A stretch of 38,649 nucleotides of DNA from an uncultured Lachnoclostridium sp. (lineage in GTDB: Bacteria; Bacillota; Clostridia; Lachnospirales; Lachnospiraceae), in assembly GCA_947178155.1 (NCBI GenBank), contig CAMWXG010000007.1:1-38649 (forward strand), read 5' to 3'. The notes beneath the pieces were generated by a model. That model had not been told where the DNA came from. It searched no databases and worked only from the letters and a program-made list of their open reading frames with translations. Of the stretch, positions 18,409 to 36,291 are shown one piece after another. The translations under genes and the position numbers were made by a program. Position 1 is the first letter of the stretch. Each line of letters starts with the position of its first letter.

Positions 18409-19383
18409 CTAATTGAAATAGACAAGCTCTTCTCCTGGCTTATCTGCCGCAGTTACACTTTCTGCATAAAACACAGGACCTTCCTCGCCATATTCCTGCA
18501 TATATTTATATTCCATAAGGGCTGTTATTGTAACATACTGCTGATTTTTAAAATTGCTCCAATCATCAGCTTTGCATAAAAATCCCATATATTGTACATC
18601 ATCTGCACAGCAGGTCATAGCATACCTTCCAAATATAGCAAACCCATTAGGAAGTCCAGGCGGCTTTTGTATCATTCCTGTCACCTTTAATGTCTTACCA
18701 TTATATTTGTCCTGATGGTCCACCATATCTACATACCACAAGCCAAAATCATCATTTGATATTTCAATAACGTCTGCATTAATGTCAAACGGCATCTCTT
18801 CCTTCATCTCATAAAATGCATCATCTTCTGATTCATAGACTATCTGAGCTCTTGGATTCACAGCTTTTATGCTTCCTCTTATAGCCAGCTTGTTTGTATC
18901 TAAGCTACATCTGTTTATTATAACCATCTCTGCAATCTTAAAATGCTCTACCATAAGTGAAGGCATATTTTTCATATATAACGCAAATGTTTCATCATTT
19001 GCCACATCTATTGTCTGAAATATAACCTCTCTGTCAAAGCAAAGCTCCTCAAGGTCGTCATAAAGTTTAGGAATGTGTGCTGTCGGCCACATTCCATTAT
19101 ACTCTATTATAACCCTATCCGGCTTATGTTTCTTTAAAAATTTAGATATAACATTAATATTAAATGATTCTTCATCTTGAATATACTCACAGACTGCCCT
19201 GCCCTTGTCAAGATCTGACTTCTCATACTCCTCCTCGCCTTCTTCACATGCAAGTATAAGAGTCTTTATCTTATCATCAAACATATCATCTGTTACTAAA
19301 TCCCGTATAAGACTGGTCTTTCCTGCTTCAAGAAATCCCATAATAATATATACCATGAGTTCTTCTTTCTTCTTTCCAAACAT
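18409..19383 (-). CDS. G3E-like GTPase fused to a YcgQ/DUF1980-like domain
   Basis: The 324-residue protein (ATG 19383, GGAGAG 4-6 bases upstream; ATG 19395 also possible) has an N-terminal P-loop GFLEAGKTSL near residue 17 and an RVIIEYNG motif, like G3E/CobW GTPases. It lacks their CxCC motif. The C-terminal third (about 210-311) resembles DUF1980 of YcgQ: YNGKTLKVTGMI, then RYAMTCCADDVQYMGFLC with a Cys pair. YcgQ-YcgR form a zinc-regulated predicted permease in Bacillus. It lies 87 bases after another G3E GTPase. A role in membrane-associated metal handling is inferred; no permease is adjacent. Confidence 0.7.
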   Translation of the reverse strand: MFGKKKEELMVYIIMGFLEAGKTSLIRDLVTDDMFDDKIKTLILACEEGEEEYEKSDLDKGRAVCEYIQDEESFNINVISKFLKKHKPDRVIIEYNGMWPTAHIPKLYDDLEELCFDREVIFQTIDVANDETFALYMKNMPSLMVEHFKIAEMVIINRCSLDTNKLAIRGSIKAVNPRAQIVYESEDDAFYEMKEEMPFDINADVIEISNDDFGLWYVDMVDHQDKYNGKTLKVTGMIQKPPGLPNGFAIFGRYAMTCCADDVQYMGFLCKADDWSNFKNQQYVTITALMEYKYMQEYGEEGPVFYAESVTAADKPGEELVYFN

Positions 19384-19482
19384 AAAACTCTCCATTTCTG
19401 GTTCTTCATACCTTATGCTTTTTTATATTATAGGGAATTACTTTGTGTTGATTACAATACAAACCCTAAAGTCTGCACTTTT

Positions 19483-20610
19483 TTATACTACATGAAAAAG
19501 CTCTTTTATAACATCTTCATTAAGCTTTGAACCTATAACACATATCCTGCCTGTATAATCTGCACTGCCTCTTCTAAGTTGTGTTTCATTTGGAACTATA
19601 TCAAAATGGAACCATTCACCATTATCAGAAGCCACAATTCCCTTAGCACGAAGCACCTCACCATATATGCTGTTCTCTGACAATTTGGACATAATCTGAT
19701 TAAGTTCATCTTCTGTAAATTTATGGGCGGTTTCTATTCCCAGGCTTGTAAATACCTCATCTGCATGATGATGGTGGTGGTCATGACAATGACACTCCTC
19801 ACCATGATGGTGATGATGTTCATGTTCCTCATCTTTATGATGATGTTCACACTCATGTTCTTCTTCATGATGGTGATGTTCATGATGATGCCCATCTTCA
19901 TGGTGGTGATGCTCATGATGATGTTCCTCTTCATGACAATGCTCATGATGATGCCCTTCTTCATGATGATGCTCATGATGGTGATGCTCTTCCTCTTCAA
20001 GAAGCTCCTTCTCCAATGAATTAACTTTTTCCATAGCCTCCAAAATCACATTTCCTTTTATTTCCTCCCATGGAGTAGTAATTACAGAAGCCTCGTCATT
20101 CTTCTCATGTATAAGTCTAAGACATGTATCAAGCTTGTCATCTGATATCTTTTGTGTTCTGCTGAGAATAATAGTGCCTGCATATTCAATCTGGTTATTA
20201 TAAAATTCACCATAATTTTTCATATACATCTTACATTTAGATGCATCAACAACTACAGCTGTACTATTTATTTCAACAGATTCCCCGATATTTTTAACAG
20301 CCTTTATAACATCTGAAAGCTTGCCAACACCTGAAGGTTCAATAATAACCCTGTCTGGAGAATATTTTTCAAGTACCTCTTTTAGTGCCTCTCCAAAATC
20401 ACCTACAAGTGAACAGCATATACAGCCTGAATTCATTTCAGTAATCTGTATGCCGGATTCTTTCAAAAAACCGCCATCTATGCCAATTTCTCCAAATTCA
20501 TTTTCAATAATAACAAGCTTCTCACCTGTAAATGCTTCTGAAATAAGCTTTTTAATCAAAGTAGTTTTTCCTGCTCCCAAAAAACCTGAGATAATATCAA
20601 TCTTTGCCAT
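19483..20610 (-). CDS. histidine-rich G3E/CobW family metallochaperone GTPase
   Basis: The 375-residue protein is a COG0523 GTPase of the zinc-chaperone kind (YciC/ZNG1/YjiA-like). It has the P-loop GFLGAGKTT (residues 9-17), ENEFGEIGID (36-45), the metal motif CICC (63-66), VIIEPSGVG (88-96), and a C-terminal CobW domain ending GRICVIG. Residues about 209-282 contain 43 histidines in 74 residues, mixed with Glu, Cys and Asp. Family knowledge says CxCC and His tracts bind zinc, nickel or cobalt. It precedes the GTPase-DUF1980 gene, probably in one transcript, which fits metal supply under limitation. Confidence 0.92.
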   Translation of the reverse strand: MAKIDIISGFLGAGKTTLIKKLISEAFTGEKLVIIENEFGEIGIDGGFLKESGIQITEMNSGCICCSLVGDFGEALKEVLEKYSPDRVIIEPSGVGKLSDVIKAVKNIGESVEINSTAVVVDASKCKMYMKNYGEFYNNQIEYAGTIILSRTQKISDDKLDTCLRLIHEKNDEASVITTPWEEIKGNVILEAMEKVNSLEKELLEEEEHHHHEHHHEEGHHHEHCHEEEHHHEHHHHEDGHHHEHHHHEEEHECEHHHKDEEHEHHHHHGEECHCHDHHHHHADEVFTSLGIETAHKFTEDELNQIMSKLSENSIYGEVLRAKGIVASDNGEWFHFDIVPNETQLRRGSADYTGRICVIGSKLNEDVIKELFHVV

Positions 20611-28400: not shown

Positions 28401-29363
28401 TTATGGGTTTTTACGTTTTTCCGCAATATTATTAGTTACACGATTATAAAGTTCAAGCGCCGCATTATATCCCATCTTCTTCTGTCTGTGATTAACGGCT
28501 GCAGATTCACAAATTACTGCAAGATTTCTGCCCGGCCTTATTGGAATAGAATGACAAACCACTTTATTACCAAGAAATTCAATATACTGCTCTTCAAGCC
28601 CAAGTCTATCATATTCCTGATCTTTATTAAACTCTTCAAGCTTAATTACAAGGTCTATCTCCTGCTCATCTTTTACACTTTCAACACCAAAAAGAGAGCG
28701 GGCATCAACAATTCCTATACCGCGAAGTTCAATAAAATGCTTAGTAGTTGCCGGAGCACAGCCAATAAGAGACTTATCACTAACTCTTTTTATCTCTACA
28801 ACATCATCTGAAACAAGTCTGTGCCCTCTATGTATGAGCTCTAGTGCAACTTCTGACTTACCAATACCGCTCTCGCCCATAATTAAAATTCCTTCACCAT
28901 ATATATCTACAAGTACACCATGTATTGTGCATCTTGGTGCAAGTTCTGAATTAAGCCAACGTATAACCTCTGCCATAAAAGGTGATGTAGCTTTCTTGCT
29001 TCTTAAAATTGGCACCTGATATTTATTAGCAAGTGCAACGATTTCATCTTCAAGCCATATTTCACGACAATATACAATGCATGGAGGCTTAGGCGATTCG
29101 TCACTGCCCGCCATGATTTTCTCCAACATCATTATACTGTGTTCCATTCCTCTTTTCTGCATGTATGTGTGCTCAACATGCCCAATAATCTGTATGCGAC
29201 TTGAATCAAAATAATCAAAATAACCTGCAAGCTGCAGTGCCGGACGATTTACTTCATTTTGTGTGATTAACACATTTCCTATGTTTACCTCCGGTGTACA
29301 ATTCTCCAAATCAAACTGCTCAATAAGTTCTTTTAATGGTACACTATATGCTCCATTCTGCAT
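28401..29363 (-). CDS. hprK: HPr kinase/phosphorylase
   Basis: HprK phosphorylates and dephosphorylates Ser46 of HPr, the key step of carbon catabolite control in Firmicutes. From ATG 29363 (GGAGGAG 4-7 bases upstream) it has 320 residues; the open frame to 29399 adds 12 unlikely residues. The Walker A GESGIGKS is at 163-170, with the N-terminal HprK domain before it and the conserved LRGIGIVDARSLFG and SIPIRPGRNLAVICE after it. It lies 71 bases after uvrC. It implies HPr/CcpA regulation of genes such as glgP and pfkA, but no clear cre site was identified. Confidence 0.97.
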   Translation of the reverse strand: MQNGAYSVPLKELIEQFDLENCTPEVNIGNVLITQNEVNRPALQLAGYFDYFDSSRIQIIGHVEHTYMQKRGMEHSIMMLEKIMAGSDESPKPPCIVYCREIWLEDEIVALANKYQVPILRSKKATSPFMAEVIRWLNSELAPRCTIHGVLVDIYGEGILIMGESGIGKSEVALELIHRGHRLVSDDVVEIKRVSDKSLIGCAPATTKHFIELRGIGIVDARSLFGVESVKDEQEIDLVIKLEEFNKDQEYDRLGLEEQYIEFLGNKVVCHSIPIRPGRNLAVICESAAVNHRQKKMGYNAALELYNRVTNNIAEKRKNP

Positions 29364-29434
29364 AATCTCCTCCTTTTCTGCCTGCTTTATATACGGCATT
29401 ATACACTATTGTTAATATTATTTTCAAGTTTCTG

Positions 29435-31303
29435 CTATGCATCATCAGAATGAAAAAATTTATATACATTCAATGCTACATTTTCATTCATGCTTTCAAC
29501 CTCTGCAAGCTCATCTACAGATGCATTTCTTACAGCTTCTATAGACTGAAAATGTCTCATAAGTGCCTTTCTCCTTCGTTCTCCTATTCCGTTTATATCA
29601 TCAAGTATTGATTTAACCTGCTCTTTACTGCGCAATGAACGATGATATTCTATTGCAAACCTGTGAACCTCATCTTGTATTCTTGTCATAAGATGAAATC
29701 CTTCGCTGTCTACCTTTACAGGCAGCTCATGCTCTTCAAAAAAAAGTCCTCTCGTTCTATGCCTGTCATCTTTTACCATACCACATACAGGAATATCAAT
29801 TCCAAGCTCATCAAGCACTTGCAGCGCCACATGCACCTGGCCAACACCACCATCCATCATAATAAGGTCAGGAAAATTTGTAAAACTTCCCATTTCTTTA
29901 TCAAAACCTTTTTTTTCAAGTGTTTCTTTTTCCGCCAGACCATGCCTGAAGCGCCTTGTCAAAACCTCATACATACTTGCATAATCATCAGGTCCTTTTA
30001 CAGTTTTAAGTTTAAACTTCCTATAGTCACTTTTTTTTGGTTTACCATCCTCAAATACAACCATAGAACCTACTGCCTGAAACCCGCTAATATTTGAAAT
30101 ATCATATGATTCAACACGTGATACACCACTTATTCCAAGCCATGAACAAATCTCTCTCATTGCACCAAAAGTTCGTTCTTCCTCACGCTTAATCCTTTCC
30201 ATATCCTGAGTAAGCACAAGAGCAGCATTTTTATGTGCAAGCTCTACAAGGCGTTCCTTCTGTCCTTTTTTAGGTACAACTATATGCACCCTGCTCCCTT
30301 TTTTCTCTGTAAGCCACTTCTCTATAATTGCAAAATCTTCTATGTTATATTCTATCATGACTTCACGAGGAATAAAAGGAGTTCCTGAATAAAATTGTTT
30401 AATAAAATCCTGCAAAATATTTTCTTTGCTCTCACCTGTTGTACCATTAAGATGAAAATGATCCCTTCCAATAAGCTTGCCATCACGTACAAAAAACACC
30501 TGAACCACTGCTTCATCAAGAGTGCTTGCCAAAGCTATAATATCTCTGTCCTCACCTTTAAAATCAGTAACCTTCTGCTGTTCAGATATCTTTTTAACAC
30601 TATTAATAAGGTCACGCCAGCCCGCTGCTTCCTCAAATGCCATAGATTTTGAAGCATTAAACATCTTTTCTGTAAGATAGGAAATCACCTCATCGTAATT
30701 CCCTTCTATAAGCTTTAGCGCCTTTTTAAAATTCTCCTGATACTCCTCTTTTGATATTTTTCCCTGACAAGGTGCATCACACTGACCTATATGATAATTT
30801 AAACATGGTCTTTCTTTTCCTATATCTCTTGGCAGTATCCTTCTACATGTCCTTACCTTATATATCTTATGCGCAAGATCAAGAGTGTCCCTTGCAGCAC
30901 TTGAACTTGTAAATGGGCCAAAATATCTGCATTTATCCCTGCTTTGCTGTCTTGAATATATAAGACGTGGAAAATCCTCAAAGACAGTAGCTTTAATAAA
31001 AGGATATGTCTTATCATCTTTAAGCATCGTATTATACTTAGGTCTGTGTTCTTTTATAAGGTTATTTTCAAGCACAAGAGCTTCAACCTCTGAGTCAGTT
31101 ATTATATACTCAAAATAATCAATCTGTGATATCATGCGCTCTATCTTTGCTGATACATTACGGCTAGTCTGAAAATACTGTCTGACACGATTCTTTAAAC
31201 TGACTGCTTTTCCTACATATATTATGGCATCAGTCTTATCATGCATTAGATAAACACCAGGCTTTGACGGCAGTTTCTTTAACTCCTCATCAAGGTCAAA
31301 CAT
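29435..31303 (-). CDS. uvrC: excinuclease ABC subunit UvrC
   Basis: UvrC makes both incisions in nucleotide excision repair. The 622-residue protein has an N-terminal GIY-YIG nuclease ([20 protein letters not shown]), a central UVR domain, the RNase-H-like C-terminal nuclease ([34 protein letters not shown]) and a terminal helix-hairpin-helix ([17 protein letters not shown]). Start ATG 31303 has GGAGG 5 bases upstream. It follows ftsH by 29 bases, and mfd lies further down the same cluster, so two arms of excision repair may share a transcript. Confidence 0.98.
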
Positions 31304-31332: not shown

Positions 31333-34206
31333 TTAAAATTTTTCCATATCATCTGAAATATCCTCTTCTGATTCTGCTGCCTTCTTTTCTATAATATTAT
31401 TTTCATTATCAATATCTTCTCTATCTTTTACTTCATCAGCCTGCATTTCTTTGTCTTGCCATACATTTTCCTGCATATCTTTGTTTTGTTCGATTACACT
31501 TTTACCTTCTTTATTTTTATCGTCTTTTTCTGTCATAAACTTATTGATAACATTTACAATTCCATCTTCATCATTTGAAAGTGTAACATAGTCAGCAAGT
31601 TCCTTTACTTCCTGCTGTGAATTTCCCATAGCAACACCCATGCCTGCAAACTTAAGCATTGGCATATCATTGTAACTGTCACCTATACATATAACTTTAT
31701 TGCGTTGTATATCAAGATGCTTTGCAAGTTTTTCAACTGCAGTACCTTTATCGACATATTTTGGAAGAAGCTCCACAAAATACGGATCAGAACGGAATAT
31801 ATTCAACCTGTCACCAAATTGCTTATCCATAAGCTTCTGAACTTCTGTCATCTCCTCTGGCTCACCACTTAAAACAAACTTATTAAATGGAAAATCAACA
31901 GCCTTGACAAAATCATTTGCTTCACGAATTGCAACATCACATGCAGCCGCATCTCTTCTTAAATATTCATTTATACCATTGCCTGATATCATTTCTTTAT
32001 TCCTGTCATTATAAACCGCGACACTTACCTTTGCACGCTTTGCAGCCTCATAAACAGGCTTTATCATATAAGGTGGTATAATCTGGTTATATATACACTC
32101 ACCTGTCTTGCAATTTACAACAGTAGTACCATTATATGCTATCACATATCCACCAAACTTTTCAAGAGCTATTGCTGATGCAGTTTTCCTTATACCTGCT
32201 ATAGAGCGTCCTGAAGCTATTGCCACTGTCTTCCCCCGTGCCTGCAGACCAATAATGGCATCTTTCGTAGTTTCTGAAATCTGTCTGTCAGATCCAGTAA
32301 GTGTACCATCTACATCAAGTACAAGCACATCATAGTTATCACCTTCAGGCTCCTCAATTCCTTTAACTTTACGGAATATCTTCATAAATTCCTTACCTGT
32401 AATAGTCTCATGTTCAATAAGAAACTCTGCAAGCTTATCAAGCGCCTCTCTGTCTCCTGAAAGAAGTTTTTCTGCTCGCTCATAACATTCCTTAAGAATC
32501 TTCATCACTTCTTTGTCTATCTCAGCTTCTGTAGAATCACCACAGTTTAAAACAGTACGTCCATCAAGATATTTACTCTCTACAGACTCCAAGCCTATCA
32601 TTCCAAATTTCTCTGTCATACCATACTGTGTTACCATAGATCTTGCAAGCGAAGTTGCCTTTTCAATATCATTAGACGCACCAGTTGTTATCGAATCAAA
32701 AACAATCTTCTCTGCTGCACGTCCTCCAAAAAGGGTGATTATACGTGTAAGTATCTCCTCCTTGCTCATAAGATACTTCTCTTCCTCTGGAACCTGCATA
32801 ACATATCCAAGAGAACCCATTGTTCTTGGTACTATAGTAATCTTTTGTACTGGTTCTGAATTTTTTTGAAGCGCAGCAACAAGTGCATGACCGATTTCAT
32901 GATATGATACTATCCTTTTCTCTTCCTTGCCAAGTATCCTGTCTTTCTTTTCCTTACCTGCTATAACCACCTCTACTGCCTCAAATAAATCCGACTGGCT
33001 TACTGCTTTTCTTCCTGCACGTACTGCCATTATCGCAGCCTCATTAATCATATTAGCAAGGTCTGAACCAACAGCACCACTTGTAGCAAGAGCTATCGCA
33101 TCAAAATCAACAGAATCATCCATAAGAACATCTTTAGCATGTACCTTTAATATATCAACTCTGCCCTTAAGGTCAGGCTTCTCAACTATTATACGCCTGT
33201 CGAAACGTCCCGGACGCAGAAGAGCCTTGTCAAGAACTTCTGGTCTGTTAGTCGCTCCCAGTATTACAAGTCCTTTTGATGTATCAAAACCATCCATCTC
33301 TGAAAGAAGCTGATTAAGTGTCTGCTCACGCTCATCATTACCGCCTCCATACTGTGAATCACGACTTTTACCTATTGCATCAATCTCATCAATAAAAATT
33401 ATACATGGTGCCATTGATTGTGCCTGTTTAAACAAATCCCTTACCCTTGAAGCTCCTACACCTACAAACATCTCTACAAAATCCGAACCTGACAGTGAGA
33501 AAAACGGAACACCAGCTTCACCTGCTACCGCTTTTGCAAGAAGTGTCTTACCAGTACCAGGAGGTCCAACAAGCAGCGCTCCCTTTGGAAGCTTTGCACC
33601 TATGTCTGCATATTTCTGTGGATTGTGGAGAAAATCTACAAGCTCATTTAAGGACTCCATCGCTTCCTCTTGCCCTGCTACATTTTTAAAAGTAACACCT
33701 GTTTCCTTTTGAACATACATCTTGGCTGTACTCTTGCCTACGCCCATCATTCCTCCAGAGCCTTTAGTCATCATTCTAAATATCAAAAACAACCCGCCCC
33801 ATAAAAGCAATATAGGAAACAATGTAGTCAGCACCATATACAAGATACTTGATGAACTGCTTGCCAACTTCTTTGAAAACTCTACACCTGATGAACTAAG
33901 GCGCTCCACAAGATTATAATCCATTGATATTATACCAGTATAATAAGTAATCTCATAAAGAGTGCTGCCCTGCGCTCTTGGCGTAATTTCAATTCTGTCA
34001 GAATCAAGAACTACTGACTCCACCATACCATCATTAAGCATTTTAATAAACTGATCATATGTTATTTCTTTATTAGATGCCTTCTCCACCTGATTATTCA
34101 TAAAAGAAAAAATCAAAAACATTCCAAGAGCTGCAACAAGACATATTATAATACTTCTCCTATTCTGATTCTTTCCGGAATCCGGCTTATTACTATTATT
34201 TTCCAA
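31333..34206 (-). CDS. ftsH: FtsH metalloprotease fused to a Cof-type HAD phosphatase
   Basis: One uninterrupted 957-codon frame. Residues 1-615 are complete FtsH: membrane helices at about 18-36 and 121-144, Walker A GPPGTGKT (214-221), Walker B FIDEIDA (271-277), second region of homology near 320-340, and zinc motif HEIGH (H436, E437, H440). Residues about 627-892 are a complete HAD-IIB/Cof domain: DVDGT (D631, D633), IASGRS, a lysine in [11 protein letters not shown], and [10 protein letters not shown] (842-851). An acidic tail of about 65 residues follows. The start is TTG 34206, with GGAGG 7 bases upstream. FtsH degrades membrane and misfolded proteins; the tethered phosphatase substrate is unknown. 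Confidence 0.93.
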
Positions 34207-34403: not shown

Positions 34404-34557
34404 GTTACTGTTCACTTCATTACCAGTAACAAGCAGTGCTGAAAACACTGAATGCACACATTTTGCCAAAATCGTGCAAAATGGCACTGCAAAACTCGTA
34501 CTTTTGGCAAAAATCATGCCAAAAATCCTCGAATTTGGCATGGGTGTGAAAAGTAAC
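34404..34557 (+). repeat. MITE-like repeat element, copy C, with terminal inverted repeats
   Basis: The 27-bp core (34404-34430) is followed by sequence shared with copy A up to about 34480. The right end, GTGTGAAAAGTAAC (34544-34557), is the inverted complement of the left end GTTACTGTTCAC with one mismatch, so the unit has terminal inverted repeats. The interior has nested inverted repeats around TTTGCCAAAA and TTTTGGCAAAA. No coding capacity. Confidence 0.65.
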
Positions 34558-34596
34558 GCCATACACTATATTTACAAAATTTTCTGAAAAAAAGCA

Positions 34597-34626
34597 TTGA
34601 ATACCCATATTAATATGAGTTATAAT
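34597..34626 (+). promoter_or_regulatory. promoter of pyrG
   Basis: TTGAAT (34597-34602) and TATAAT (34621-34626) are 18 bases apart. The predicted start near 34633 has no GGG run, so the Bacillus-type reiterative G-addition control of pyrG is not evident. Confidence 0.6.
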
Positions 34627-34671
34627 AAAAAAATATTGTGCAAAGAGAGCTTTACAAGGAGGATAAATTAA

Positions 34672-36291
34672 ATGGCAGTCAAATATGTATTTGTTACCGG
34701 AGGCGTAGTATCCGGACTTGGCAAGGGGATTACCGCAGCTTCTCTTGGAAGGTTGCTTAAAATGCGGGGTTACAGCGTTACAATGCAAAAATTCGATCCA
34801 TATATCAATATTGATCCGGGTACAATGAATCCTGTTCAACATGGAGAGGTATTTGTTACAGACGATGGTGCTGAAACAGACCTTGATTTGGGACATTACG
34901 AACGCTTTATTGATGAAAGCCTTACAAAACAATCAAATGTTACAACAGGCAAAGTATATTGGTCAGTATTAAACAAAGAACGCCGTGGAGATTATGGCGG
35001 AGGAACTGTTCAGGTTATTCCTCATATAACCAACGAAATAAAAAGCCGCTTTTACCGCAATGATGGCTGCAAAGATACCCAGATTGCCATAATTGAAGTA
35101 GGTGGAACAGTAGGCGATATCGAAAGCCAGCCTTTTCTTGAGTCAATACGCCAGTTTCAACATGATATAGGACATGAAAACGCAATCCTTATACATGTAA
35201 CTCTTATACCATATCTACATGCATCAGGAGAGATGAAAACAAAACCTACACAGGCAAGTGTAAAAGAACTTCAAGGTATGGGTATACAGCCTGATATAAT
35301 AGTATGCCGTACTGAACGCGAACTTGATACTGGAATAAAGGACAAGATTGCTCTTTTCTGTAATGTACCTACAAAATGTGTACTTCAAAACTTAGATGTA
35401 GAAACACTTTATGAGGCTCCGCTTGCAATGGAAAAAGAACACCTTGCAGATGTAGTATGCGACAAGCTCTGCCTTGACTGTCCTGAACCAGACATAACAG
35501 AATGGCAAACTATGGTTGATAATATAAAACATCTTAATAAAGATGTAACTATTGCTCTTGTCGGAAAATACACTTCACTGCATGATGCATATATAAGTGT
35601 TGTAGAAGCACTTAAACATGGCGGTTTAGCTCATAAAAGCAATGTCAATATAAAGTGGATACCATCAGAAGAGCTCAATCTTGACAATGCAAAAGACTTG
35701 CTAAAAAATGTAAGTGGAATACTTGTACCTGGTGGTTTTGGAGACCGAGGCATAGACGGCAAAATATACGCCATACAGTATGCACGTGAAAATAATATTC
35801 CATTTCTTGGTCTTTGCCTTGGTATGCAGCTTGCCATCGTTGAGTTTGCAAGAAATGTTGTTGGCTTTCATGATGCACACAGCATTGAACTTGACCCACA
35901 GACTACACACCCTGTAATACACCTTATGCCAGAACAAGATGGAATTGAAGATATAGGCGGAACTCTTCGCCTTGGCTCTTATCCATGTGTACTTGATAAA
36001 AACTCCAAAGCATATAAATTATATGGTGAAGAAACAATTAACGAAAGGCACAGACATCGCTACGAGGTTAATAATTACTATCGGGATGAACTTATTAAAA
36101 ACGGGCTTTTACTCTCGGGACTTTCACCTGATGGGCGTATAGTGGAAATGTGCGAACTTCCAAATCACCCTTGGTTTGTCGCTACACAAGCACATCCTGA
36201 ATTTAAATCAAGGCCAAACAGACCTCATCCTCTATTTAGAGGATTTATAGATGCTGCACTGCTTTATGCAAAACAATTTCCTATCAATTAA
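34672..36291 (+). CDS. pyrG: CTP synthase
   Basis: CTP synthase aminates UTP to CTP using glutamine and ATP. The 539-residue protein has the N-terminal amidoligase domain ([35 protein letters not shown]) and a C-terminal class I glutamine amidotransferase with C382 in GLCLGMQ and the H508/E510 pair in AQAHPEF. Full length. ATG 34672 follows AAGGAGG with a 9-base gap. It stands alone behind its own promoter, 25 bases before the glycosylhydrolase gene. Confidence 0.98.

Follow-up and report, generated by a model that had tools for sequence, protein, structure and literature searches.

An FtsH membrane protease joined in frame to a Cof-type HAD phosphatase domain in one clade of sampled Lachnospiraceae

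The DNA analysed here, which we refer to as the window, is a 38,649-nucleotide stretch from an uncultured Lachnoclostridium sp. (GenBank assembly GCA_947178155.1, contig CAMWXG010000007.1), and at 31333..34206 on the minus strand it carries a single reading frame of 957 amino acids plus a stop codon in which the membrane protease FtsH is followed by a Cof-type HAD phosphatase. This frame had been proposed in an earlier model's reading of the letters alone (the sequence-only reading), which left the strand unnamed, and it is indeed present. The start codon is a TTG at 34206, and a ribosome-binding site, AAGGAGG, can be read from the sequence 7 nucleotides 5' of it (34220–34214); a promoter scan returned 24 matches against a mean of 24.0 in shuffled sequences, which is chance level. 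Five Pfam domains score above their cut-offs, all on the minus strand: FtsH_ext (PF06480, residues 19–112, 33871..34152), the AAA ATPase (PF00004, residues 211–342, 33181..33576) with its Walker A motif at 214–221, the AAA lid (AAA_lid_3, PF17862, residues 365–407, 32986..33114), Peptidase M41 (PF01434, residues 424–610, 32377..32937) with the zinc site H436/E437/H440 and D513, and the Cof-type HAD-IIB phosphatase (Hydrolase_3, PF08282, residues 628–887, 31546..32325), which begins 17 residues after the end of the Pfam M41 domain. A linker (residues 613–624, 32335..32370) separates the two enzymes, and a weakly conserved acidic tail (residues 893–957, 31336..31530, with 24 acidic and 11 basic residues of 65) ends the protein.

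The protease half matches the NCBIfam FtsH model TIGR01241 with 762.7 bits against a cut-off of 600, over residues 28–606 and model positions 6–597 of 598, and its Walker A motif reads GPPGTGKT. It therefore resembles other members of this M41 family in having FtsH_ext, AAA, AAA lid and M41 domains with the catalytic residues, but differs from them in having a further domain, a phosphatase of some 260 residues, C-terminal to the protease. The genome of the window also encodes an ordinary FtsH, in a 636-amino-acid frame behind the spoIIE and tilS genes, which is 44% identical to the fused one, and the fused protein is thus an additional, non-canonical paralogue rather than the sole FtsH of the genome.

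The phosphatase half is equally complete, scoring 204.3 bits against a cut-off of 137 for TIGR00099 (Cof) over all 256 model positions (1–256), and 217.3 bits for PF08282 over positions 1–255 of 255. It has the HAD core with a C2B cap fold, and its motifs are D631/D633, S665-G-R667, K820 and D843/D847. The nearest solved structures are 3niw, 4dw8 and 4dwo from Bacteroides thetaiotaomicron and YidA (1rkq) from Escherichia coli. The motif positions given in the sequence-only reading were correct for both halves, and its central claim of two complete enzymes in one frame with intact catalytic residues is borne out by Pfam, by NCBIfam and by the related proteins described below.

The same architecture was recovered elsewhere when we scanned 84,980 species genomes using four aligned HAD domains from fused proteins and two peptide patterns. 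Of 37 loci found, 29 (L053–L081, HAD identity at least 62%) have FtsH and HAD in one frame, and the remaining eight (L082–L089, HAD identity 37% or less) are unfused; with two peptide patterns as its basis, the scan gives 29 as a minimum. Like the window, all 29 loci have an uninterrupted frame across both domains, with two of them (L068 and L074) ending at a contig edge inside FtsH. It might be supposed that the junction was created by assembly or sequencing, as the genome of the window is an 86% complete draft broken into 228 contigs and the fused relatives are by title mostly metagenome-assembled genomes (MAGs). This we consider barely credible and reject, as the frame is open across the junction at the 29 other loci, including those of Butyribacter intestini TF01-11, Eubacterium sp. 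MSJ-13 and Bacterium D16-51, which are not titled as MAGs; the hidden stop near codon 617 that the sequence-only reading had named as something that would refute its proposal is excluded in the same way.

The genomes with fused loci are labelled Lachnospiraceae, Lachnoclostridium, Butyribacter intestini (Lachnospiraceae in NCBI taxonomy), Eubacterium sp. MSJ-13 and Bacterium D16-51, and further labels are less exact (Clostridiaceae, Eubacteriales, bacterium), with MAGs forming the majority. In a sample of 299 genomes drawn evenly from the family, 235 had a HAD match at 1e-20, and among the matches listed four lay in frames of 912–965 amino acids (from the window's own genome, one genome of the same genus and two of other genera) and the non-fused matches lay in frames of up to 567 amino acids, mostly 265–330. 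The Cof-type HAD-IIB phosphatase (TIGR00099) is thus usually a stand-alone enzyme, whereas the HAD of the fusion is attached to a membrane protease. Among 391 genomes of the class, 22 had a match to the HAD query at 1e-45, with a long frame only in the window's own genome, and among 398 genomes of the phylum the full-length query gave 28 matches at 1e-200, with both halves covered only in the window's own genome; the phylum sample may have missed an independent fusion because only two candidates per genome were scored. A tblastn search of 72,556 plasmid records with the whole protein found no single place covering 80% of the query, and on this ground a plasmid origin was rejected. A match in Mesomycoplasma was also set aside, as ftsH, lysS and HAD are separate genes there. 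On these samples, the fusion appears to be restricted to one Lachnospiraceae clade.

The expectation that FtsH normally ends near residue 600–650 fails for this paralogue within the family. Seven unfused FtsH frames among the matches listed (G176, G137, G041, G208, G228, G003 and G236) are 800–955 amino acids in length, have no HAD match, and owe their extra length to low-complexity tails or upstream sequence (these are all the unfused frames of at least 800 amino acids among the roughly 155 of 272 matches listed; G257, with a frame of 852 amino acids in the phylum sample, lay outside this check). We note that the unfused FtsH paralogue linked to uvrC (L090, L091 and L095–L099) has a conserved KGIPEP-like end beyond which come lengthy low-complexity tails that vary greatly, and that the L090 tail exceeds 300 residues and has repeat units like EFPLEVNTL.

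Across the 30 fused proteins, the protease residues H436, E437, H440 and D513 are invariant, as are K220, E274, R331 and R334 in the 29 proteins uncut there (one protein is truncated). In the phosphatase, D631, D633, R667, K820, D843 and D847 are invariant in all 30, and residue 665 is a serine in 26 of them and a threonine in the other four. Mean pairwise identity is 93% for AAA, 87% for M41 and 67% for HAD, falling to 55% in the HAD stretch 708–790, 57% in residues 1–150 and 22% in the tail. The ratio of non-synonymous to synonymous substitution rates (dN/dS, Nei–Gojobori) for the HAD half was 0.020–0.107 in ten of 14 pairs, with synonymous sites saturated in the other four, and five of the ten values depend on dS above 1. 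In each of the ten usable pairs the ratio was lower for the cytosolic part of the FtsH half than for the HAD half (0.029 vs 0.107 for the window and L053), and the phosphatase is therefore the faster-changing half. Judged by these ratios and residues, both halves are under purifying selection, with their catalytic sets intact throughout the fused clade. The acidic tail noticed in the sequence-only reading is real in the window, but it is not a conserved part of the protein, as its length spans 2 to 81 residues among the 30 fused proteins.

One gene might nevertheless yield two products, if internal initiation or self-cleavage of FtsH released the HAD domain. E. coli FtsH undergoes C-terminal self-processing, and some fused members have in-frame starts and purine-rich stretches near the HAD start, as in L057 (AGGAG at –28 nucleotides and an ATG at codon –4). 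However, nine of the 30 members have no in-frame ATG, GTG or TTG from codon –22 to the nucleophile D631, and a start with a Shine–Dalgarno sequence near the HAD start is not conserved in the clade, so that we hold this explanation to be quite improbable.

The genes around the fusion, named from their translations, bear on its origin. Downstream by 29 nucleotides is uvrC (29435..31303, minus strand), followed as second gene downstream by hprK, encoding HPr kinase/phosphorylase (28401..29399, minus strand), and upstream lies the divergent pyrG, encoding CTP synthase (34672..36291, plus strand). Homologues of hprK likewise turn up among the related loci. A frame of 170 amino acids at 34420–34932 (minus strand) runs antisense to pyrG, whose start it overlaps, and is probably there by chance. 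Further away, the window has a CobW-like GTPase gene with a long histidine-rich stretch (19483–20610, minus strand), metal-related by the look of its translation, and adjoining it a second, apparently related GTPase (18409–19395). Within the stretches fetched for the 29 fused loci, 21 show a pyrG homologue on the upstream side and 11 show uvrC on the downstream side, not always immediately adjoining. Nine fused loci (L054, L059, L060, L063, L064, L065, L067, L070 and L075) have pyrG upstream and no uvrC found in about 6 kb downstream; with at least nine such loci, some members of the clade have therefore undergone rearrangement of the neighbourhood, and in these nine the fusion has outlived the change in its surroundings.

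Seven unfused relatives (L040, L042, L048, L082, L092, L093 and L094), a minimum count, have a separate HAD gene directly 3' of ftsH on the same strand. These are homologous genes in equal order and orientation, differing from the window in being two genes rather than one. Six of the seven have uvrC downstream (not L082), and divergent pyrG is found in L040, L042, L048 and L092. Measured from the stop of FtsH to the earliest start open to the HAD gene, the spacing ranges from a 20-nucleotide overlap (L092) to 645 nucleotides (L042), and in L048 the gap is 15 nucleotides and in frame, so that losing the stop codon would by itself fuse them. In L044 a HAD gene stands beside uvrC and most of FtsH is hidden by 8,000 N of 18,001 bases (G108:C6:6000-24000). 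Among nine unfused loci chosen for long frames or as controls, uvrC directly follows ftsH, without an intervening HAD gene, in seven (L090, L091, L095, L096, L098, L100 and L101, not L097 or L099); divergent pyrG is found in L090, L099 and L100, and hprK in L101.

Phylogenetic analysis placed the fused proteins together in both halves. The FtsH tree, made by a quick method, has the fused rows as one clade (Shimodaira–Hasegawa-like approximate likelihood ratio test, SH-aLRT, 98) nested in a group of 36 rows (98) that contains fused and adjacent-gene forms only, and the HAD tree has the 30 fused rows as one clade (100/99), to which the nearest, without starred support, are L092, L044 and L008 (two adjacent-gene HADs and one stand-alone). 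It should be noted that both trees leave out L033–L035, copies of L055, L071 and L076 with identical proteins (ignoring the first residue for L035/L076), that the HAD tree leaves out two long rows (L083 and L088), and that the FtsH tree leaves out L074, which is cut, and includes nine HAD-less unfused rows that were mostly chosen for long frames and are not random. These data are most simply read as a single fusion event, and an origin by the joining of neighbours is probable because at least seven unfused relatives have both genes side by side.

Such adjacency, together with the variable tail after the HAD domain, would also suit a neutral fusion, in which the stop between neighbours was lost and both enzymes simply went on working, without any function for the joining itself. 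We think this unlikely, since the fusion is kept by one clade of 30 sampled members at a mean HAD identity of 67% with no reversal seen, and the stretch from FtsH to HAD is constant where the tail length of FtsH is very variable in unfused kin.

That constancy is seen in the spacing from M608 to D631, which is 23 residues in all 30 fused proteins, and in the linker, where mean pairwise identity (79%) exceeds that of the HAD domain. Both speak for a regulatory coupling in which the HAD would sense or use up a phosphorylated ligand, or a phosphorylated protein substrate, and thereby determine which proteins FtsH degrades, or when. The HAD also comes directly after the C-terminal helices of FtsH. 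The review PMC12994072 describes the FtsH-family protease YME1L as forming a hexamer, and it regards these helices of the protease domain, in YME1L as in FtsH, as likely participants in engaging substrates. Re-split genes were not seen in any member of the fused clade, and hprK downstream is by name a protein-phosphorylation enzyme. Other points weaken this case. The VKGIxEPE-like part of the linker is ancestral FtsH sequence that is also present in unfused kin, so that fused proteins are not alone in conserving it; the HAD shows no net length change from the DxDGT to the GDSxND motif in the 29 loci, which makes a fixed linker length less special; and in L101 the order FtsH–uvrC–hprK occurs without a HAD between, so that little can be learned about the HAD from hprK. 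Most of what is known of Cof-type HADs concerns small-molecule phosphatases. We therefore treat coupling, which the sequence-only reading had also suggested, as a tentative possibility, and as more doubtful still its fullest form, a phospho-metabolite-gated membrane protease in which sugar-phosphate binding or hydrolysis (or protein dephosphorylation) by a HAD fixed to the protease ring through its short linker would steer the substrate choice of FtsH and make membrane proteolysis in gut Lachnospiraceae depend on the flux of carbon.

The reading we prefer, with a probability of roughly 55%, is that of a lineage-specific fusion giving a second FtsH whose hexamer would carry six active sugar-phosphate phosphatases, tethered without obligatory coupling. 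In one Lachnospiraceae clade the second FtsH would have become linked, in the simplest case a single time, to a YidA-like Cof-type HAD whose counterpart in related lineages is a separate gene downstream. The fused protein would assemble in the membrane as an FtsH hexamer, as FtsH generally does, and would display six phosphatases, folded and active, where the C-terminal end of the protease faces the cytosol. The phosphatase would probably keep its ancestral job of dephosphorylating small sugar-phosphate-like metabolites, and the main effect of the fusion would be to make its abundance, lifetime and location follow those of FtsH; the most economical function to propose seems that of a small-molecule phosphatase kept beside the protease. 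An AlphaFold model of M41 plus HAD as a monomer (mean predicted local distance difference test score, pLDDT, 83.3; predicted template modelling score, pTM, 0.71) has a helix at 604–615 and then the HAD fold, with pLDDT above 90 in most blocks; in the sequence the HAD follows the C-terminal helix region of the protease after a short linker.

Several observations weigh against this preferred reading. The full-length AlphaFold model has a mean pLDDT of 60, and its quality beyond the HAD is not good enough for positioning this domain on the ring. In the HAD tree the adjacent-gene HADs do not group together (6 changes), giving the step from neighbour to fusion no clean sister relation, and half of the dN/dS values lean on high dS. 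The constant length and high identity of the linker fit a specific rigid coupling at least equally well. Among the matches listed, no HAD-enzyme equivalog scored above its NCBIfam cut-off; the best, the PRK10513 sugar-phosphatase model, which we take to be that of YidA, scored 171.9 bits, and because this falls under the cut-off of 273 the HAD half is, on model scores, YidA-like but not classed as YidA.

FtsH is among the most conserved bacterial proteases, and to our knowledge its regulation outside the proteobacteria is poorly known. FtsH and Cof-type HADs are each well known, and as far as could be seen their joined architecture appears to be new: our literature search, within the portions of open-licence PMC papers it returned, found no description of an FtsH–HAD fusion, and the sole Cof-type mention in the part of PMC8112672 returned is a silent single-nucleotide polymorphism unrelated to the fusion. 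Fused, adjacent and HAD-less lineages offer a ready three-way comparison. That the fusion is kept across a clade while relatives have adjacent genes, or no HAD there, hints that the two activities belong together, and the fusion could point to the substrate of a HAD subfamily and to a new tie between proteolysis and metabolism.
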